Source of the DNA: Nitrosopumilus cobalaminigenes | Lineage (GTDB): Archaea; Thermoproteota; Nitrososphaeria; Nitrososphaerales; Nitrosopumilaceae | Direction of reading: 5' to 3' | Assembly: GCF_013407145.1 (NCBI RefSeq) | Contig: NZ_CP026993.1 | Coordinates: 248,001 to 312,000, forward strand | Length of the DNA: 64,000 bases | Shown here: positions 3,521-12,103 of the stretch, piece after piece | Layout: every line of letters begins with the position of its first letter | Numbering within the stretch: the first letter of the stretch is position 1 | Made by a program: the position numbers and the translations under genes | Notes under the pieces: generated by a model | Databases searched by the model: none | Told to the model about the DNA's origin: nothing | Seen by the model: the letters and a program-made list of their open reading frames with translations, nothing else

Positions 3521-3536
3521 ATAAAGTAAAAGAGAG

Positions 3537-3610
3537 CGGGTCTAAAGGGATTCGGACCCTTGACAACCGGATTAAAAGTCCGGTGCGCTACCTGGCTGCG
3601 CCATAGACCC
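3537..3610 (-). tRNA. tRNA-Lys (TTT)
   Basis: Read on the minus strand, a 7-bp acceptor stem GGGTCTA/TAGACCC encloses normal D, anticodon and T arms. The anticodon stem CCGGA/TCCGG has the loop CTTTTAA, giving anticodon TTT. The T loop is TCCGAAT. The discriminator base is G and no CCA is encoded. There is no intron. A TATA-like ctgtataatt lies about 25 bp upstream at 3629-3638. Confidence 0.93.
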
Positions 3611-3706: not shown

Positions 3707-3784
3707 GCCCTTGTAGTATAGCCCGGTCTAGAATTCGGCCCTGTCACGGCTGAGACGCGTGTTCAAATCCCGCCGAGGGCGCCA
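3707..3784 (+). tRNA. tRNA-Asp (GTC), CCA encoded
   Basis: Acceptor stem GCCCTTG/CGAGGGC (one G-T pair), anticodon stem CGGCC/GGCTG with loop CTGTCAC giving anticodon GTC, T loop TTCAAAT. The discriminator G is followed by genomic CCA at 3782-3784. One pair of the T stem (GCGTG against CCCGC) is a T-C mismatch, which is unusual. A TATA-like tttaat lies about 30 bp upstream. No intron. Confidence 0.9.
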
Positions 3785-3920
3785 TTATTTCTATTTCATT
3801 GATAGATGTTCATTTTACATCCGATCAAAATAAAATTCTCAGAAAATATTCTTGAATTAGGATAGTTTGAAGATGAATCTCACAAGAATATTAAAATTCA
3901 GGGAATTTTAGTGAAATTTG

Positions 3921-4640
3921 TTGTCTGAAGAGAAAAAAGAATCTGAAGTCGAAGTAAAACCTACTGAAGATTCAACATCTGAAAAACCATCTTCAGATGA
4001 AACTGTAAAAGCAGCTGAAGAAGCAAAAGCAGCTGAAGAAGCAAAAGCAGCTGAAGAAGCAACATTAAAAGCTGAAGCAGCAGCTAAAGCTGTTGAAGAA
4101 GCAGAACTTGCAGTAAAGGAGGCTCTTGCAAAAGCTGAAGCAGCTAAAGCTGAAGCAGAAGCAGCAGCTGAAGAAGAATACAAAGCAATAGCAGCTGAAG
4201 TAAAAGCAGATGCAGCAGCAAAATCAGATTATACATTTAAGAGACAAGGTGAAGAAATTTTTAGACGAGATATGGGGGAACCTGAATTCTGGTTAGAAAA
4301 GGAAGACCGATTCCCAAGACCAATTCTTTCAGCAGATGAACAAGAATCACTTACTAGAATCGCTGAAATTCCACAAGATCAAACTCCTGCATATATTCCT
4401 GAACATGTTCTTAGTCCTGAATTTGAAGGTGTTTCAAATTATGAACGTGGTGTTGATTCCTTTTTAGAAGAAACCAAACAAAAACTTGAACAATTAAAAA
4501 ATAATCCTGATGCAACTGAAAAAGAAATTAAAGAAACTGAAAATGAAATTATTTACTTGGAATCCTTACATGAAAATTTCTATCTTGGAATGAATGTATT
4601 TAGAACTGCAAAAGGCGGACGTGACAAAATTAGTGCTTAA
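3921..4640 (+). CDS. Ala/Glu-rich coiled-coil protein, function unknown
   Basis: 239 aa. Residues about 1-30 are acidic and Ser/Pro/Glu-rich. Residues about 30-100 are a long Ala-Lys-Glu helix containing tandem copies of A-A-E-E-A-K, almost certainly coiled coil. Residues about 105-239 form a less repetitive domain with F-K-R-Q-G-E-E-I-F-R-R-D and F-W-L-E-K-E-D-R-F-P-R-P segments and a second predicted helix pair near 185-220. I do not recognise the family. The start is one of two adjacent TTG codons (3918 or 3921). An AT-rich TATA-like stretch lies around 3890-3897. The GluTR-like gene follows after 11 bp, so the two are probably co-transcribed and may act together. Confidence 0.75.
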   Translation: MSEEKKESEVEVKPTEDSTSEKPSSDETVKAAEEAKAAEEAKAAEEATLKAEAAAKAVEEAELAVKEALAKAEAAKAEAEAAAEEEYKAIAAEVKADAAAKSDYTFKRQGEEIFRRDMGEPEFWLEKEDRFPRPILSADEQESLTRIAEIPQDQTPAYIPEHVLSPEFEGVSNYERGVDSFLEETKQKLEQLKNNPDATEKEIKETENEIIYLESLHENFYLGMNVFRTAKGGRDKISA

Positions 4641-4651
4641 TGGTGATATGA

Positions 4652-5728
4652 TTGGGTGAAATTAGATTTGATGTATTGAATGCAAGAGTTACATTCAAGA
4701 ATGTACCTTTACATACGTTATCTAAATTTACTTTCAAAGATGTGAATGCTGCATGTGCAGAATTTAAAAAAATTGATGGTGTTGATGAATGTATTATTAT
4801 TCAAACTGCAAGTAGAGTTGAAATATTTACAGTAAGTAATGTTGAAATCGATGATTCTCCAGATGCAAGAAGAGTAGAAGGTAAAACACTTGTGTTAAAC
4901 CAAATTAAAGACACTTGGGTATCTTTATCATCTTTAGAACAAATTGATATAGATCACTTTGATCAAACTCTTGAAGTTTACAAAGGTGATGATGTATATC
5001 TACATCTATTACGATTAGCATCTGGATTAGACTCTGTAGTTGTTGGAAAACAAGAAATTTTTGATGAAATAGTTCAATCTCTGTCAAATGCAAAAGATGC
5101 TGGTGTATCTGGAAATATTCTCAATAAATTATTTGATAGTGTAATTCGTTTAGCCATTAGAATGAGAGATACTACTGGAATTTCTAAAGATGTAATTTCA
5201 TTAGGTGATATTGCAGTAAAATTAGTTGATGAAAAAGCCGGTCTTGATTCCAAGAAAAAAGTACTTGTGATAGGAACTGGTGAGCCTGCAGCCATGCTTG
5301 CAAAAACTCTAAACAAAAAAGGTATTGCATTTGATGTTACTAGTAGAAGTTTAGACCGTGCAACTGGTTTCACAACAATTCTTGGTGGAACTCCTGTTGA
5401 TTTTGATGCTGTTTTAGCAGGATTTGATAAATATGATATTATCTTCGTTGCGACAACTTCTGATTATTTTTTAATCACATATGAAAGAATTAGATTGATA
5501 ATGGAAGAAAAGAAAAAAGGAACTCTTATTCTTGATTTATCAGATCCAAGAACTGTTGATGAAGGAATAACTGCACTACCTGGAATCAAATTGTTGTTCA
5601 GAGATCAGATTGCAGAACTTTATGAAGAAAGTGTAAAAGCTAGAGTTGGAATTGTTCCTGCAGTAGAGAAAATCATTGAAAAAGAACTACCTGTTTTATC
5701 TGCTAGAATGAAAAGACTAGATGCTTAA
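4652..5728 (+). CDS. Glutamyl-tRNA reductase-like protein, catalytic Cys missing
   Basis: 358 aa, related to HemA/GluTR, which reduces glutamyl-tRNA to glutamate-1-semialdehyde for tetrapyrrole synthesis. Family blocks are visible: Q-T-x-S-R-V-E-I at residues 51-58, then H-L-L-R-L-A-S-G-L-D-S-V-V-V-G-K near 113-128, and a Rossmann V-L-V-I-G-T-G-E block near 204-211. The catalytic Cys of the family T-C-N-R-x-E motif is Ala53 here (gca at 4808-4810). The Rossmann fold lacks the usual N-R after the second strand, and the protein ends where the C-terminal dimerisation domain should begin (family usually about 400-460 aa). It may therefore be a non-catalytic paralogue. TTG start preceded by ggtga. 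The partner gene upstream is a coiled-coil protein. Confidence 0.8.
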   Translation: MGEIRFDVLNARVTFKNVPLHTLSKFTFKDVNAACAEFKKIDGVDECIIIQTASRVEIFTVSNVEIDDSPDARRVEGKTLVLNQIKDTWVSLSSLEQIDIDHFDQTLEVYKGDDVYLHLLRLASGLDSVVVGKQEIFDEIVQSLSNAKDAGVSGNILNKLFDSVIRLAIRMRDTTGISKDVISLGDIAVKLVDEKAGLDSKKKVLVIGTGEPAAMLAKTLNKKGIAFDVTSRSLDRATGFTTILGGTPVDFDAVLAGFDKYDIIFVATTSDYFLITYERIRLIMEEKKKGTLILDLSDPRTVDEGITALPGIKLLFRDQIAELYEESVKARVGIVPAVEKIIEKELPVLSARMKRLDA

Positions 5729-5732
5729 TTTA

Positions 5733-5900
5733 CTATAATCCTTGTTTTCTTAAGAGAAACTGCATAACGGCTTCTTTAGAATAATCTATTCCGTGTTCGT
5801 CATCTGTATGGGCTCTAAAATTATCGATTACTTCTTCCATTTCTCCTTCAGCTACAAAATCACACTCAAATCCATAATCATTACACTTGAGTTTTGCCAT
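5733..5900 (-). CDS. DUF1059 family small protein
   Basis: 55 aa from the ATG at 5900. The sequence begins MAKLKCNDYGFECDF and contains two cysteines (C6, C13), an acidic E-G-E-M-E-E helix and a H-x-x-D-E-H-G segment, the pattern of DUF1059 proteins, whose role is unknown but possibly metal-binding. A longer frame starts at 5957, but its extra residues are hydrophobic and overlap a TATA-like box (atataaaaa, 5921-5929) about 25 bp from the 5900 ATG. The gene is convergent with the GluTR-like gene, with a 4-bp gap. Confidence 0.75.
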   Translation of the reverse strand: MAKLKCNDYGFECDFVAEGEMEEVIDNFRAHTDDEHGIDYSKEAVMQFLLRKQGL

Positions 5901-6004: not shown

Positions 6005-6847
6005 CTATCCATATGATTCAAACTTGATCCCGAAACTTCCATCTGGTTTTTTCTCATGTTCAGTTACGAATCCTTTAGGACCAAGATACTCAATCACACC
6101 ATCAATTGTTCCTTGATATCCACAAATGTAGATGATGGTGTTATCTGGAGTCAATTCCTCACCCACCATTTCTTCCACTGGTGACAATCCAGATTTTTTA
6201 TCAGGCTTGAAAAATGATTCAACTCTGCCTACATGACCATTCCAAGATCTGTTGAAAAATTCTTTTGGTCTACTAATTGCAGCTCTATATCTGAAATTCC
6301 ATTTGTCTCTTCCCTTTTTTTCACTTTCTAATTCTAGGTCAGTTAACAATCTCTTGTAACTTAATTCATCAACATAACTTGCGCCATGAAGAACAACTAC
6401 TTCTCTTTTATCATTGGTATCGTGAAAATGTTTAGCAAATGCAATGAATGGTGCTAGTCCTGTACCTCCCCCAACACAAATCACTCTTCTGTTATCTTTT
6501 TGCCCATTAGGTAATTTGTCACTAATTTGTAGTGCAGCTCCTGTTGGATCTCCTAGAGATACTTCATCACCAACACTTAGATAAAATAATTCAGTTGTAA
6601 CACGACCTGGAAGTGGTTTTCTAACCCATCTAATTACAAATTCAAAATAATCTCTATTTTCTGCATGCGATGCAATAGAATATGCTCTTCTCACAACTTT
6701 TTTCTCTGCTGGAATTGGAAGGCCTATTGTCAAAAATTGACCTGTTTTGTATTCTGGCATTCCATTTTCTGGAACCAATCTAATTATCACTAAATCTTCT
6801 TTGAGTAACTCCCTATAGACGACCTTTGCTTTCATCTCAGTTACCAT
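6005..6847 (-). CDS. Ferredoxin/flavodoxin-NADP reductase
   Basis: 280 aa. The N-terminal FAD domain has R-R-A-Y-S-I-A-S near residues 53-60 (the R-x-Y-S FAD motif) and a following G-x-V-T-T segment. The C-terminal nucleotide domain has V-G-G-G-T-G-L-A-P-F near 125-134. These place it in the plant/bacterial Fpr family, which exchanges electrons between NADPH and ferredoxin. In an organism with a complex I lacking the NADH module, such an enzyme could supply reduced ferredoxin or NADPH. A TATA-like aaatatattt at 6875-6884 lies 32 bp before the ATG at 6847; an internal ATG at 6835 is also possible. Confidence 0.88.
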   Translation of the reverse strand: MVTEMKAKVVYRELLKEDLVIIRLVPENGMPEYKTGQFLTIGLPIPAEKKVVRRAYSIASHAENRDYFEFVIRWVRKPLPGRVTTELFYLSVGDEVSLGDPTGAALQISDKLPNGQKDNRRVICVGGGTGLAPFIAFAKHFHDTNDKREVVVLHGASYVDELSYKRLLTDLELESEKKGRDKWNFRYRAAISRPKEFFNRSWNGHVGRVESFFKPDKKSGLSPVEEMVGEELTPDNTIIYICGYQGTIDGVIEYLGPKGFVTEHEKKPDGSFGIKFESYG

Positions 6848-7864: not shown

Positions 7865-8980
7865 GTGAGTGGTAAAGATCAATCTGTAATTAGTAAAGAA
7901 GCTTTAATGAGTACAAAACCTGGAAAACAGATCATTAAACAAGCATTGTTCAAATCTAAAGGTTACAAATTATTTAACAAATACAAGGAAGAAACAGAAA
8001 AGCAATTTCCTAATTTTGCAGAGAGATTTGCAAAAGGTCTATTAGATGAGATTCAATCCGACACAAATCCTAATGCTACTCAACAAGCTTTTGGAAATGA
8101 AGTAGGTTCCACCGAAATTATCCTAAATGCGTCTGAAATTGAGCCTATCAAATCAAAATTAGACAATCTTGAAGTAATGCAAGATAGAGTTAATCGAATT
8201 CTAAATTCTAATTTTGTAAAAATGACTTTCCCTGTGTTTAACGGATTATTTGATGCTGCAGCAGAGTATTCTGGAAGAGATGATCCACAACTAAAACAAG
8301 ATATGGTAGAAGGACATATTCTTGCAATTGATCTTAGTGAACCAATGGATAGAATTGTAGATAAGGATGAAGATTTAGAATTTTTAGATGATTACAAATT
8401 AATGAATCCGTACATTCTGAAACTAGCTAGAGATAAAATCTCAAAAGGTGGCGAGCAAGTTCTAAAAGAATTTGAAGCTGGATTTGAAGATGCTAGAATT
8501 GGACAATACTTGGACGAGAAATTAAAATCAAAACCAACGGAAATTACTGAAGAGGAAATGACCTTGTCCTACAAAAAATATCGTGCAGTAATGGGAACTG
8601 CTGGGAGAAATATGGCTTTGGCAGAAAGACCCTTGGGCGAAATTTTCTATTTGGGTATGGCAAGAGCTGCTGAAGGTGTTGGATGTGGAAATGAAATTGA
8701 AGATTCTATTAAAAATGGGTTTGTAAAAATACCTTCGTGGCCACTTTATTATTCATTATTGGCAGATGATGTGAAAAAAGGATTTGATGTTACTTTGGAA
8801 AAAAGTAATTTGTATTTACAAGATGCAAGACTTACCCTTGAATTACTACCTGAAAATTTTTCTCATAAAGAATTTTTAGAATTTTTATTTTTGACTGTAG
8901 AGCATTACAATCAATATTGGTTCAATAAACTACAAAAAGCCAATAAATGGTCAGAGTATCACTCTAAACTCCCTAAGTGA
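7865..8980 (+). CDS. Uncharacterised protein upstream of rfcL
   Basis: 371 aa, largely helical, no signal peptide or membrane segment. I recognise no domain. The N-terminal third is Lys/Gln-rich; the middle has acidic D-K-D-E-D-L-E-F and S-G-R-D-D-P segments; the last third has V-G-C-G-N-E-I-E and L-T-V-E-H-Y-N-Q-Y-W-F. GTG start at 7865 with a TATA-like cataaataac about 25 bp upstream, so probably leaderless. The stop lies 8 bp before the RfcL ATG, indicating an operon with the clamp loader and a link to replication or repair. That link is inference only. Confidence 0.7.
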   Translation: MSGKDQSVISKEALMSTKPGKQIIKQALFKSKGYKLFNKYKEETEKQFPNFAERFAKGLLDEIQSDTNPNATQQAFGNEVGSTEIILNASEIEPIKSKLDNLEVMQDRVNRILNSNFVKMTFPVFNGLFDAAAEYSGRDDPQLKQDMVEGHILAIDLSEPMDRIVDKDEDLEFLDDYKLMNPYILKLARDKISKGGEQVLKEFEAGFEDARIGQYLDEKLKSKPTEITEEEMTLSYKKYRAVMGTAGRNMALAERPLGEIFYLGMARAAEGVGCGNEIEDSIKNGFVKIPSWPLYYSLLADDVKKGFDVTLEKSNLYLQDARLTLELLPENFSHKEFLEFLFLTVEHYNQYWFNKLQKANKWSEYHSKLPK

Positions 8981-8988
8981 TTACCTTG

Positions 8989-10146
8989 ATGTGGTCTGAA
9001 AAATACCGACCTCAGATAATTTCTGACATGGTGGGAAATGAAGAAGCACGAGCAGCAATTACTGAATGGTTTGTCAAATGGAAAAAAGGCACAAAACCAT
9101 TACTTTTAGTTGGTCCTCCTGGAATTGGAAAAACCACAATTGCATATCTTGTAGCAAAACAATTTGGATATGATATGATTGGGTTAAACGCCAGTGATGT
9201 CAGGAGTAAATCTCGAATAAATGAAATTCTTACGCCTGTCTTAGCTAATGTAAGTGTCATGGGAATTCCTATGATTTTTGTCGATGAAGTTGATGGAATT
9301 CATGGTCGTGGAGATTATGGTGGTGCTTCTGCACTTGTAGATATTTTAAAAGAACCAACAGTTCCAATTGTTCTGGCTGCAAATAGTGATACTTCTGATA
9401 AAATGAAAAGTATCAAAAAAGTTGTGAAAACAATTCAATTCAAAAAAATTCCCCCAAGATTATTGCGTGTATATCTTGAAAATATTTTACAAAAACAAAG
9501 TGCAAAACTAAGTCCTGGTTCATTAATTAAAGTAATTGATAAATCAAAAGGAGATATTCGTTCTATGATAAATCTTACACAATCTTTAGTGACTGGATTT
9601 AATCCTCAAACTGAAAAAACTTTTGAAAGTATTAATGTCGAAGATGGTGTAAATGCTTTCTTTAAAGCAAAATCTATTGATGAAGCAAGAAGTGTTCTAT
9701 ATTCAATGCAAATTGATCCAAGAGAAAAAATACACGCATTTTATTCCAGTATAATTACAAGCGAATTGGATAATCCTACACTTACAAAATATTTAGAAAC
9801 AATATCTGAAGCTGACATGCTTTATGGAAGAATAATGAAAACACAAAATTGGAGATTACTTAGATATCTAAATGATATTTTAATTAAATTATATCAAAAT
9901 GATGACAGAATTAGATATGCACAATACAATTTGTCTTGGCCATTACTAAATAGAATTCGTTGGGATGGTGCAAAAATTAAATCATTATCATCTGTTATGG
10001 CACGAAAATTACATTTGTCTTCAAGTTCTTTTGTTTCTATCTGTTTACCATTTGTTTTATTTTGTATCAAAAACAAATCTTTAGAATTAGAATTAGAGGA
10101 AACTTATGGTGATATTATTGAAAAGGAGATTGAACTATTACAATGA
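8989..10146 (+). CDS. rfcL: Replication factor C large subunit
   Basis: 385 aa AAA+ clamp-loader subunit that opens PCNA rings at primer ends. Walker A G-P-P-G-I-G-K-T-T lies at residues 42-50 and Walker B I-F-V-D-E-V-D-G around 97-103. The N-terminus W-S-E-K-Y-R-P matches RFC proteins. In RfcL the arginine-finger S-R-C motif of small subunits is absent, as here. The ATG at 8989 is preferred to an in-frame GTG at 8977 overlapping the previous stop. The protein is at the short end for RfcL and has no Lys-rich PIP tail. It overlaps the next gene by 4 bp (ATGA). Confidence 0.9.
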   Translation: MWSEKYRPQIISDMVGNEEARAAITEWFVKWKKGTKPLLLVGPPGIGKTTIAYLVAKQFGYDMIGLNASDVRSKSRINEILTPVLANVSVMGIPMIFVDEVDGIHGRGDYGGASALVDILKEPTVPIVLAANSDTSDKMKSIKKVVKTIQFKKIPPRLLRVYLENILQKQSAKLSPGSLIKVIDKSKGDIRSMINLTQSLVTGFNPQTEKTFESINVEDGVNAFFKAKSIDEARSVLYSMQIDPREKIHAFYSSIITSELDNPTLTKYLETISEADMLYGRIMKTQNWRLLRYLNDILIKLYQNDDRIRYAQYNLSWPLLNRIRWDGAKIKSLSSVMARKLHLSSSSFVSICLPFVLFCIKNKSLELELEETYGDIIEKEIELLQ

Positions 10147-10454
10147 GCTGGAGAAAAATTCCTATGAAGTTCCCAGGTACCTGTATTGTTTGTAATGAAA
10201 AAATACCTGTTAACGAAATTGGCCTTTGGGCCAAAGGGTTAGGTGTTAAACATGAAAAATGTGCCCAGACAAATGAATTACAATGTATTGTATGTGGGGC
10301 TTCTGCTGGATGCGCTCAATGTGAATTTCAAGAAAACTGTGATATCCCAAATGTCTCTCAATTGTGTATCTGTAAGAAATGTAGTGAAGAAAAAGATACT
10401 TTTGGCTCTTATCAGAAATCCGTGAACAAGAAATTTCCAATTCTTAACACTTGA
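10143..10454 (+). CDS. Cys-rich putative metal-binding protein coupled to rfcL
   Basis: 103 aa with twelve residues suited to bind metal. C14-x2-C17, H37-x2-C40 would make one zinc finger. C48-x2-C51, C57-x2-C60, C66, C75, C77 and C80 form a second dense Cys cluster that could hold zinc or an iron-sulfur cluster. The ATG overlaps the rfcL stop in an ATGA arrangement, so translation is probably coupled and the protein may act in replication or repair. I do not recognise the family. Confidence 0.75.
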   Translation: MSWRKIPMKFPGTCIVCNEKIPVNEIGLWAKGLGVKHEKCAQTNELQCIVCGASAGCAQCEFQENCDIPNVSQLCICKKCSEEKDTFGSYQKSVNKKFPILNT

Positions 10455-10540: not shown

Positions 10541-12103
10541 TTGATTCAGAATACCGTGCATTCTGAAAAGATTGAAGGATATACTAAAAAAAATAATACA
10601 TCATTACAAGGCGGAGGCCAAGATCGAATCAAGGCTCAGCATGATAAGGGGAAATTAACTGCTCGTGAGAGAATTAATCTTTTGCTTGATGAAGGTACTT
10701 TCACCGAAATTGATCCACTAACCACACATCATTATCATGAATATGATATGCAGAAAAAGAAATTCTTTACAGATGGTGTAGTTGGTGGTTATGGGAATGT
10801 TGATGGAAGGCAAGTCTTTGTCTTTGCATATGATTTCACAGTACTTGGTGGAACACTAAGTCAGATGGGAGCTAAAAAAATCTGTAAACTAATGGATCAT
10901 GCTGTTCAAACAGGATGTCCAATTATAGGTGTCATGGATTCTGGTGGAGCTAGAATCCAAGAAGGCATCATGAGTCTTGATGGATTTGCAGATATCTTTT
11001 ATCATAATCAATTAGCATCTGGTGTAATTCCACAAATTACAGCAAGTATTGGTCCATCAGCAGGTGGTTCTGTATATTCGCCAGCAATGACTGATTTTGT
11101 AATTATGGTTGAAAAAGTAGGAACTATGTTTGTCACAGGCCCTGATGTAGTCAAGACTGTATTGGGTGAGGAAATATCTTTTGATGATTTAGGAGGAGCA
11201 ATGACACATGGTTCCAAAAGTGGTGTGGCCCATTTTGTTGCACAAAATGAATACGAATGTATGGATTATATCAAAAAATTAATTTCATATTTACCTCAAA
11301 ATAATACTGAAGCACCACCTAAAATTAAAACTGATGATGATCCAAACAGAATGGATCATAACTTGATCAATATCATTCCTGAAAATCCTTTACAACCATA
11401 TGATATGAAAGAAATCATAAATTCAATTGTTGATGATCATGAATTCTTTGAAGTCCATGAATTGTTTGCTGCAAACATTGTAGTTGGTTTTGGAAGAATG
11501 AATGGAAAGGTTGTTGGAATTGTCGCAAACCAACCTATTGTACTTGCTGGTGCACTTGACATTGATTCATCAAACAAAGCAGCACGTTTCATTCGATTCT
11601 GTGATTCATTCAATGTTCCAATAATTACTTTAGTTGATACTCCCGGATACATGCCAGGTTCTAATCAAGAACATAACGGTATCATTAGACATGGTAGTAA
11701 GTTACTTTATGCATACTGTGAAGCAACTGTTCCAAGAATTACTTTAGTTATTGGAAAGGCATATGGTGGTGCATACATTGCAATGGGAAGTAAAAATCTT
11801 AGAACTGACATTAACTATGCATGGCCAACTGCAAGATGTGCTGTTTTGGGTGGAGAAGCAGCTGTAAAAATTATGTATAGAAAAGACCTTGCTGAAGCTG
11901 ATGATGCTGAAGCATTAAAGAAACAATTAATCGATGAGTTTACAGAAAAGTTCGAAAATCCATACGTTGCAGCATCTCATGGAACTGTAGATAATGTAAT
12001 TGATCCTGCTGAAACAAGACCGATGTTAATTAAAGCACTTGAAATGCTCGAAAATAAAAGAGCAAAACAATTACCAAGAAAACATGGAAATATCAACCTG
12101 TGA
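10541..12103 (+). CDS. Acyl-CoA (acetyl/propionyl-CoA) carboxylase, carboxyltransferase subunit
   Basis: 520 aa, the usual length of PccB/AccD-type carboxyltransferases. Crotonase-like blocks are visible: G-A-R-I-Q-E-G near residue 141, S-A-G-G-S-V-Y-S-P-A near 175, and V-D-T-P-G-Y-M-P-G near 364 with I-G-K-A-Y-G-G-A-Y near 401. It moves CO2 from biotin to acetyl-CoA or propionyl-CoA. In ammonia-oxidising archaea this bifunctional enzyme fixes carbon in the 3-hydroxypropionate/4-hydroxybutyrate cycle. TTG start at 10541. The biotin carboxylase and biotin carrier follow with 6-bp gaps, so the three form one operon. Confidence 0.93.
   Translation: MIQNTVHSEKIEGYTKKNNTSLQGGGQDRIKAQHDKGKLTARERINLLLDEGTFTEIDPLTTHHYHEYDMQKKKFFTDGVVGGYGNVDGRQVFVFAYDFTVLGGTLSQMGAKKICKLMDHAVQTGCPIIGVMDSGGARIQEGIMSLDGFADIFYHNQLASGVIPQITASIGPSAGGSVYSPAMTDFVIMVEKVGTMFVTGPDVVKTVLGEEISFDDLGGAMTHGSKSGVAHFVAQNEYECMDYIKKLISYLPQNNTEAPPKIKTDDDPNRMDHNLINIIPENPLQPYDMKEIINSIVDDHEFFEVHELFAANIVVGFGRMNGKVVGIVANQPIVLAGALDIDSSNKAARFIRFCDSFNVPIITLVDTPGYMPGSNQEHNGIIRHGSKLLYAYCEATVPRITLVIGKAYGGAYIAMGSKNLRTDINYAWPTARCAVLGGEAAVKIMYRKDLAEADDAEALKKQLIDEFTEKFENPYVAASHGTVDNVIDPAETRPMLIKALEMLENKRAKQLPRKHGNINL

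Follow-up and report, generated by a model that had tools for sequence, protein, structure and literature searches.

What can a protein with the fold of glutamyl-tRNA reductase (GluTR, HemA) do when catalytic residues of its active site are lost? This question is raised by the hemAL gene of the window, the whole 64,000-nucleotide stretch of Nitrosopumilus cobalaminigenes DNA that was analysed (Table 1). The gene is read from a TTG start codon, and comparison of its product, HemAL, with Pfam gave GlutR_N at 101.2 bits (cut-off 27) together with Shikimate_DH. The score against TIGR01035, the hemA equivalog model, was 187.4, which is under the cut-off of 209.55; the other HemA of the same genome scored 340.8. 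The top Foldseek match was the GluTR structure 1gpj (E 3e-22), and the HemAL part of the AlphaFold fusion model described below showed a confident GluTR-like fold, with pLDDT mostly about 80–95.

Table 1. Features around hemAL, in positions of the window (AOA, ammonia-oxidising archaea).
Feature	Position	Strand	Basis or remark
up240L, partner in operon with hemAL, 240 aa, low-complexity N-terminus	3918–4640	+	No Pfam or PDB match
up240L segment with FRRDMGEPEFW (consensus FRREMGEPEFF)	4224–4379	+	Only in hemAL genomes
up240 core domain, AOA-wide, predicted helical hairpin	4380–4631	+	Stands alone in short proteins directly 5′ of pccB in other AOA
hemAL, HemA paralogue, catalytically dead by sequence, 358 aa	4652–5728	+	ORF, Pfam, alignment; about 130 of the 200 family genomes have an orthologue
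Codons 53–55 of hemAL: Ala-Ser-Arg where HemA has Cys-Asn-Arg	4808–4816	+	ORF translation, alignment
hemAL-specific 15-residue insert, residues 60–74	4829–4873	+	Alignment; D71 and R73 invariant in 65/65
Rossmann motif GTGE, residues 208–211 of HemAL	5273–5284	+	Identical in the canonical HemA of the genome
DUF1059 protein, 55 aa, between hemAL and reductase	5733–5900	−	32.4 bits, cut-off 21.1; matched in other loci; candidate unit member at most
hemAL-linked FAD/NAD(P) oxidoreductase, ferredoxin-NADP-reductase-like	6005–6847	−	Second copy outside the window, G000:C1:242891

The catalytic residues of GluTR are a Cys, a His and a Gln, with an Arg for the substrate. The earlier note, made from the letters of the window, had proposed that the catalytic Cys is replaced by Ala53 (gca at 4808–4810), and the alignment was in full agreement with this proposal: HemAL reads QT-A-S-R-V-E where the canonical HemA of the same genome reads QT-C-N-R-I-E, and Cys was found at this site in none of 65 aligned orthologues. 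Two further exchanges, of the active-site Asn to Ser54 and of the Gln to Glu135, had not been mentioned there, nor had the insert listed in Table 1 or the partner gene up240L. The Cys-thioester mechanism of GluTR and the role of its third domain are summarised in PMC6399207.

Position 53 is occupied by A, S, G, T, Q, H, N or P in the 65 orthologues, and all of 79 orthologues from named genomes showed a non-Cys motif, TCNR never being found. What the relatives share is the absence of Cys; the Ala, whose conservation the earlier note had thought worth checking, varies. A DNA-level scan of 20 genomes for the Ala-type motif was of little use, its pattern being too narrow for a site that varies. 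Residue 54, at which HemA has Asn, is occupied by S, T or F in the orthologues (Asn 0/65), the active-site Gln is likewise absent (0/65), and the His is present in 38, including the HemAL of the window, and lost in 27. Q51, R55 and E57 are kept in 65/65, the Arg and Glu of the substrate pocket being retained, and residues D71 and R73 (both in the insert), L80, H102, Q105, G197 and D271 are invariant or near-invariant among the 65 orthologues and found in the paralogue only.

Searches for hemAL covered 200 genomes of the family Nitrosopumilaceae and 250 genomes of the class. The gene was found throughout the genus Nitrosopumilus and, within the family, in many further genera, the named records including Nitrosopumilus, Nitrosarchaeum, Nitrosopelagicus and some Nitrosotenuis; in the class genomes, the other families showed single HemA matches, none of them hemAL-like by score. 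A quick maximum-likelihood tree placed 50 paralogue rows in one clade (support 100). Because this clade is nested in the canonical HemA of the family, hemAL is, on this tree, a duplication of single origin within Nitrosopumilaceae, the precise branching point being unsure in a tree of this kind.

The chain ends before the dimerisation domain, as the earlier note had also stated. HemAL closes with ‘...MKRLDA*’ where canonical HemA continues in the alignment with ‘MKRLDAEPLVKDVF...’, Pfam gave no match for the C-terminal dimerisation domain in HemAL, and no remnant of the domain was detected downstream of hemAL in the window. An early C-terminal end was found in the clade of the window (25 rows, support 99) and in at least three other lineages, and orthologues of 412–426 aa in several genera still have the domain. 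Since so many orthologues retain it, its absence is, by comparison of the orthologues, a late and repeated loss and not the defining property of hemAL. The loss would be recent in loci L071 and L066, because readable remnants, of the entire domain in the former and of part of it in the latter, follow the stop. The in-frame stop of L071 (4789–5046, minus strand), with the dimerisation domain otherwise readable, may represent recent loss or an assembly error.

Translational coupling of hemAL with the partner gene up240L is shown by the gene spacing. The two genes are 0–22 nt apart or overlap in the loci examined, and a larger gap was found only in L045, in which the start of hemAL had been called too far downstream and the hemAL frame is readable within the gap. 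Up240 was without an accepted match in Pfam, a sequence match in the PDB or a significant match in Foldseek. Its core, the last ~85 residues, was present in all tested genomes of the family and also occurs in three further families of the order, and ten genomes from the other families examined lacked it; we infer that these three families are AOA and the others are not.

Upstream of the core, the Up240L proteins of hemAL genomes contain a segment with the consensus FTxKRxxExIFRREMGEPEFF that is absent from the short forms. Segment and hemAL were both present in 128 of the 200 family genomes and both absent from 66, with three genomes showing hemAL only and three the segment only. Fragments of hemAL, on other or split contigs, are present in all three segment-only genomes. 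In the three hemAL-only genomes hemAL is cut at its start, in one of them at base 2 of the contig, and in the remaining two the open frames are consistent with a contig end, which is the likely cause. The same all-or-nothing pattern was observed inside genera g3 and g17. In the latter, the hemAL-containing members G017 and G076 show two genes for up240 and two close copies of the reductase, and four congeners devoid of hemAL have one up240 and one reductase each. The all-or-nothing co-occurrence of segment and hemAL is the strongest hint, drawn from gene content, of a direct functional tie between the two. The MGEPEFF stretch weakly resembles the LGEPQIL motif of HemA, a likeness too short to count.

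In the AlphaFold model of Up240L alone (pLDDT 70) the core forms a helical hairpin and the shared segment is disordered. In a fusion of Up240L and HemAL obtained by reading through the stop codon (38 loci; shallow alignment), the pLDDT of the segment was about 54, as compared with 43–48 without HemAL. Binding of HemAL to Up240L is unsupported by this model, and we infer it from the genetics.

A ferredoxin-NADP-reductase-like gene was nearly always found close to hemAL, the remaining neighbours varying between loci, and in the reductase tree the hemAL-linked copies were on one side of a branch with modest support (79). In genomes without hemAL a short up240 gene lies directly 5′ of pccB, which is followed by accC and a biotin carrier gene. 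This location, on the same strand as pccB, was found in 12/12 listed family loci (hemAL-less or second-copy, with pccB on the contig), and up240 was directly upstream of pccB also in 5/5 loci of other AOA families. The up240L gene of Nitrosopumilus is not directly upstream of pccB; the unit is located by argH, about 5 kb from pccB, which is at 10541 in the window. Several hemAL genomes outside this genus have the order up240L, hemAL, reductase, pccB, and because of this order the comparison suggests that hemAL and the reductase gene were inserted between up240 and pccB, the trio later having moved together. In the window, a tRNA-Lys (3536–3610, minus strand) and a tRNA-Asp (3707–3784, plus strand) are found between argH and up240L, at what seems to be the new site of the unit in Nitrosopumilus. 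In four loci of other AOA families (L138, L140, L141 and L142, at about 1480–1730) a helical protein of 70–76 aa is encoded 5′ of pccB; this protein may be a small component of the carboxylase system that has gone unrecognised.

With a probability of about 60%, the best explanation of these data is that HemAL is a non-catalytic subunit with the GluTR fold working with Up240L and the linked reductase; HemAL is probably a subunit for binding or regulation and not a haem-synthesis enzyme. HemAL would be a pseudoenzyme, derived from a duplicated HemA of which it has kept the fold, the Gly-rich Rossmann motif and the pocket Arg and Glu. It would be unable to form the glutamyl thioester and, for this reason, would make no glutamate-1-semialdehyde. 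Binding to Up240L would take place via the FRREMGEPEFF segment, presumably gained by Up240L together with hemAL, and the two proteins would act as a unit with the linked flavin reductase, the kept pocket and the Rossmann motif possibly binding a carboxylate and NAD(P)H.

Such a unit may act near a carboxylase, and the leading candidate target would be the acetyl/propionyl-CoA carboxylase of the 3HP/4HB cycle, because elsewhere the coding sequence of the Up240 core immediately precedes pccB-accC. The proximity of Up240L to pccB may be historical, since in Nitrosopumilus the unit has its place by argH. As regards a role as carboxylase accessory, no similarity of the Up240 core to a known carboxylase subunit was found by Pfam, PDB sequence or fold comparison. 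It is doubtful that HemAL and Up240L are a pair of regulatory subunits of this carboxylase, the GluTR fold reading the NADP(H)/carboxylate state and Up240 relaying it to the enzyme. If they were, the signal would reach the CO2-fixing enzyme of abundant marine archaea. Ammonia-oxidising archaea belong to the most abundant cells of the ocean.

Regulation of tetrapyrrole synthesis by HemAL, through binding of HemA, HemL or Glu-tRNA and competition with or scaffolding of the active enzyme, is unlikely. HemAL is a close paralogue of the HemA of its own genome (44.9% identity) with the pocket Arg and Glu retained, HemA is known to bind HemL (PMC6399207), and the dimerisation domain of some orthologues means that heterodimers were once possible; this domain has, however, been lost repeatedly. 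The genome (1.56 Mb, one contig) does contain, as the earlier note had considered, a canonical HemA with T-C-N-R, encoded at C1:452004 (minus strand; 423 aa) by the sole other GlutR_N gene, and this gene adjoins one whose product, as judged by eye, resembles a Met8-type precorrin-2 dehydrogenase. Normal HemA is kept in genomes with and without hemAL. The hemAL gene is unlinked to hem genes and lies outside the tetrapyrrole gene cluster: in a 2010 survey the only HemA of N. maritimus is NMAR_0510, in the cluster NMAR_0490–0512 (PMC3004389), and hemAL is located elsewhere. The role in haem or cobalamin synthesis considered by the earlier note is thus unsupported, hemAL being tied to Up240L and the reductase in a region shared with acyl-CoA carboxylase genes. 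One genome (G027, genus g6, 95% complete) showed zero GlutR_N matches, unlike its relatives, possibly owing to an assembly gap.

Rather improbable is an active NAD(P)H oxidoreductase that acts on a carboxylate or aldehyde in some other reaction, without a thioester. The G208-T209-G210 residues of the Rossmann motif are present in 65/65 orthologues, GTGE is intact in a Rossmann domain of the Shikimate_DH type, new near-invariant residues (D71, R73, H102 and Q105) are located in the N-terminal half and a flavin reductase gene is linked, but site 53 has no conserved new nucleophile and position 232, at which an Arg touching the NADPH phosphate would be expected, has R in 37/65 orthologues and M, K, Q or L in the other 28. 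The statement of the earlier note that the NADPH-binding fold is altered is overstated and only partly right: in the HemAL of the window R232 is kept and GTGE is the same as in canonical HemA, and comparison with this HemA gives no support to an altered Rossmann fold as a hallmark of hemAL.

Pairwise dN/dS values of hemAL were 0.015–0.24, mostly <0.1, and the gene evolves under purifying selection, in agreement with the view of the earlier note that the fold is under selection. A functionless decaying duplicate or a sequencing error, to which the lost catalytic residues, the repeated C-terminal truncation and the stop of L071 inside a readable dimerisation domain could point, is highly improbable in view of the dN/dS values, the number of genomes, the invariant new residues and the conserved partner. 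A pseudogene was ruled out by dN/dS and conservation, and a sequence error or an only copy of hemA by the presence of canonical HemA and the absence of Cys across the relatives. The two outcomes that the earlier note would have taken as refuting its view, an only hemA and relatives with Cys, are both excluded.

Among known systems, HemAL is like HemA (TIGR01035; PDB 1gpj, Methanopyrus kandleri) in its fold, its GlutR_N and Rossmann domains and its pocket Arg and Glu, and it is nested in archaeal HemA. It differs in the orthologue-wide absence of the active-site Cys, Asn and Gln, the insert, the usually missing dimerisation domain, the score under the family cut-off and the genome context. The short HemA model NF001909 (PRK00676, 338 aa) is similar in length and in its short C-terminus, but the HemAL match was weak (35.4 bits, cut-off 478) and this is not a close relative. 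The proposed complex would be like that of the GluTR-binding regulators (plant GBP, PDB 4n7r and 5yjl) in combining a non-catalytic partner with a GluTR fold; unlike plant GBP, the dead partner HemAL would itself have the GluTR fold, and Up240L has no PDB sequence match. The combination of a duplicated fold, lost catalytic residues and a structure under selection is that of pseudoenzymes in general (reviewed in PMC10211241). No GluTR-family pseudoenzyme was found in the literature searched, nor any paper on hemAL or a dead GluTR, in a search covering few subscription journals, and guessed N. maritimus locus numbers for hemAL led to no literature.

Annotation by similarity would call hemAL a second glutamyl-tRNA reductase, and its recognition as a conserved dead paralogue would remove this error from metabolic reconstructions. 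As an example of a pseudoenzyme recruited with its partner, the matched occurrence of the Up240L segment and HemAL would be unusually clean, and hemAL is a testable lead to a protein complex that may touch carbon fixation.

Two other conserved genes of the window without a Pfam match, at 7865–8980 (371 aa) and 10143–10454 (103 aa, with CxxC motifs), travel with an RFC large-subunit-like gene.
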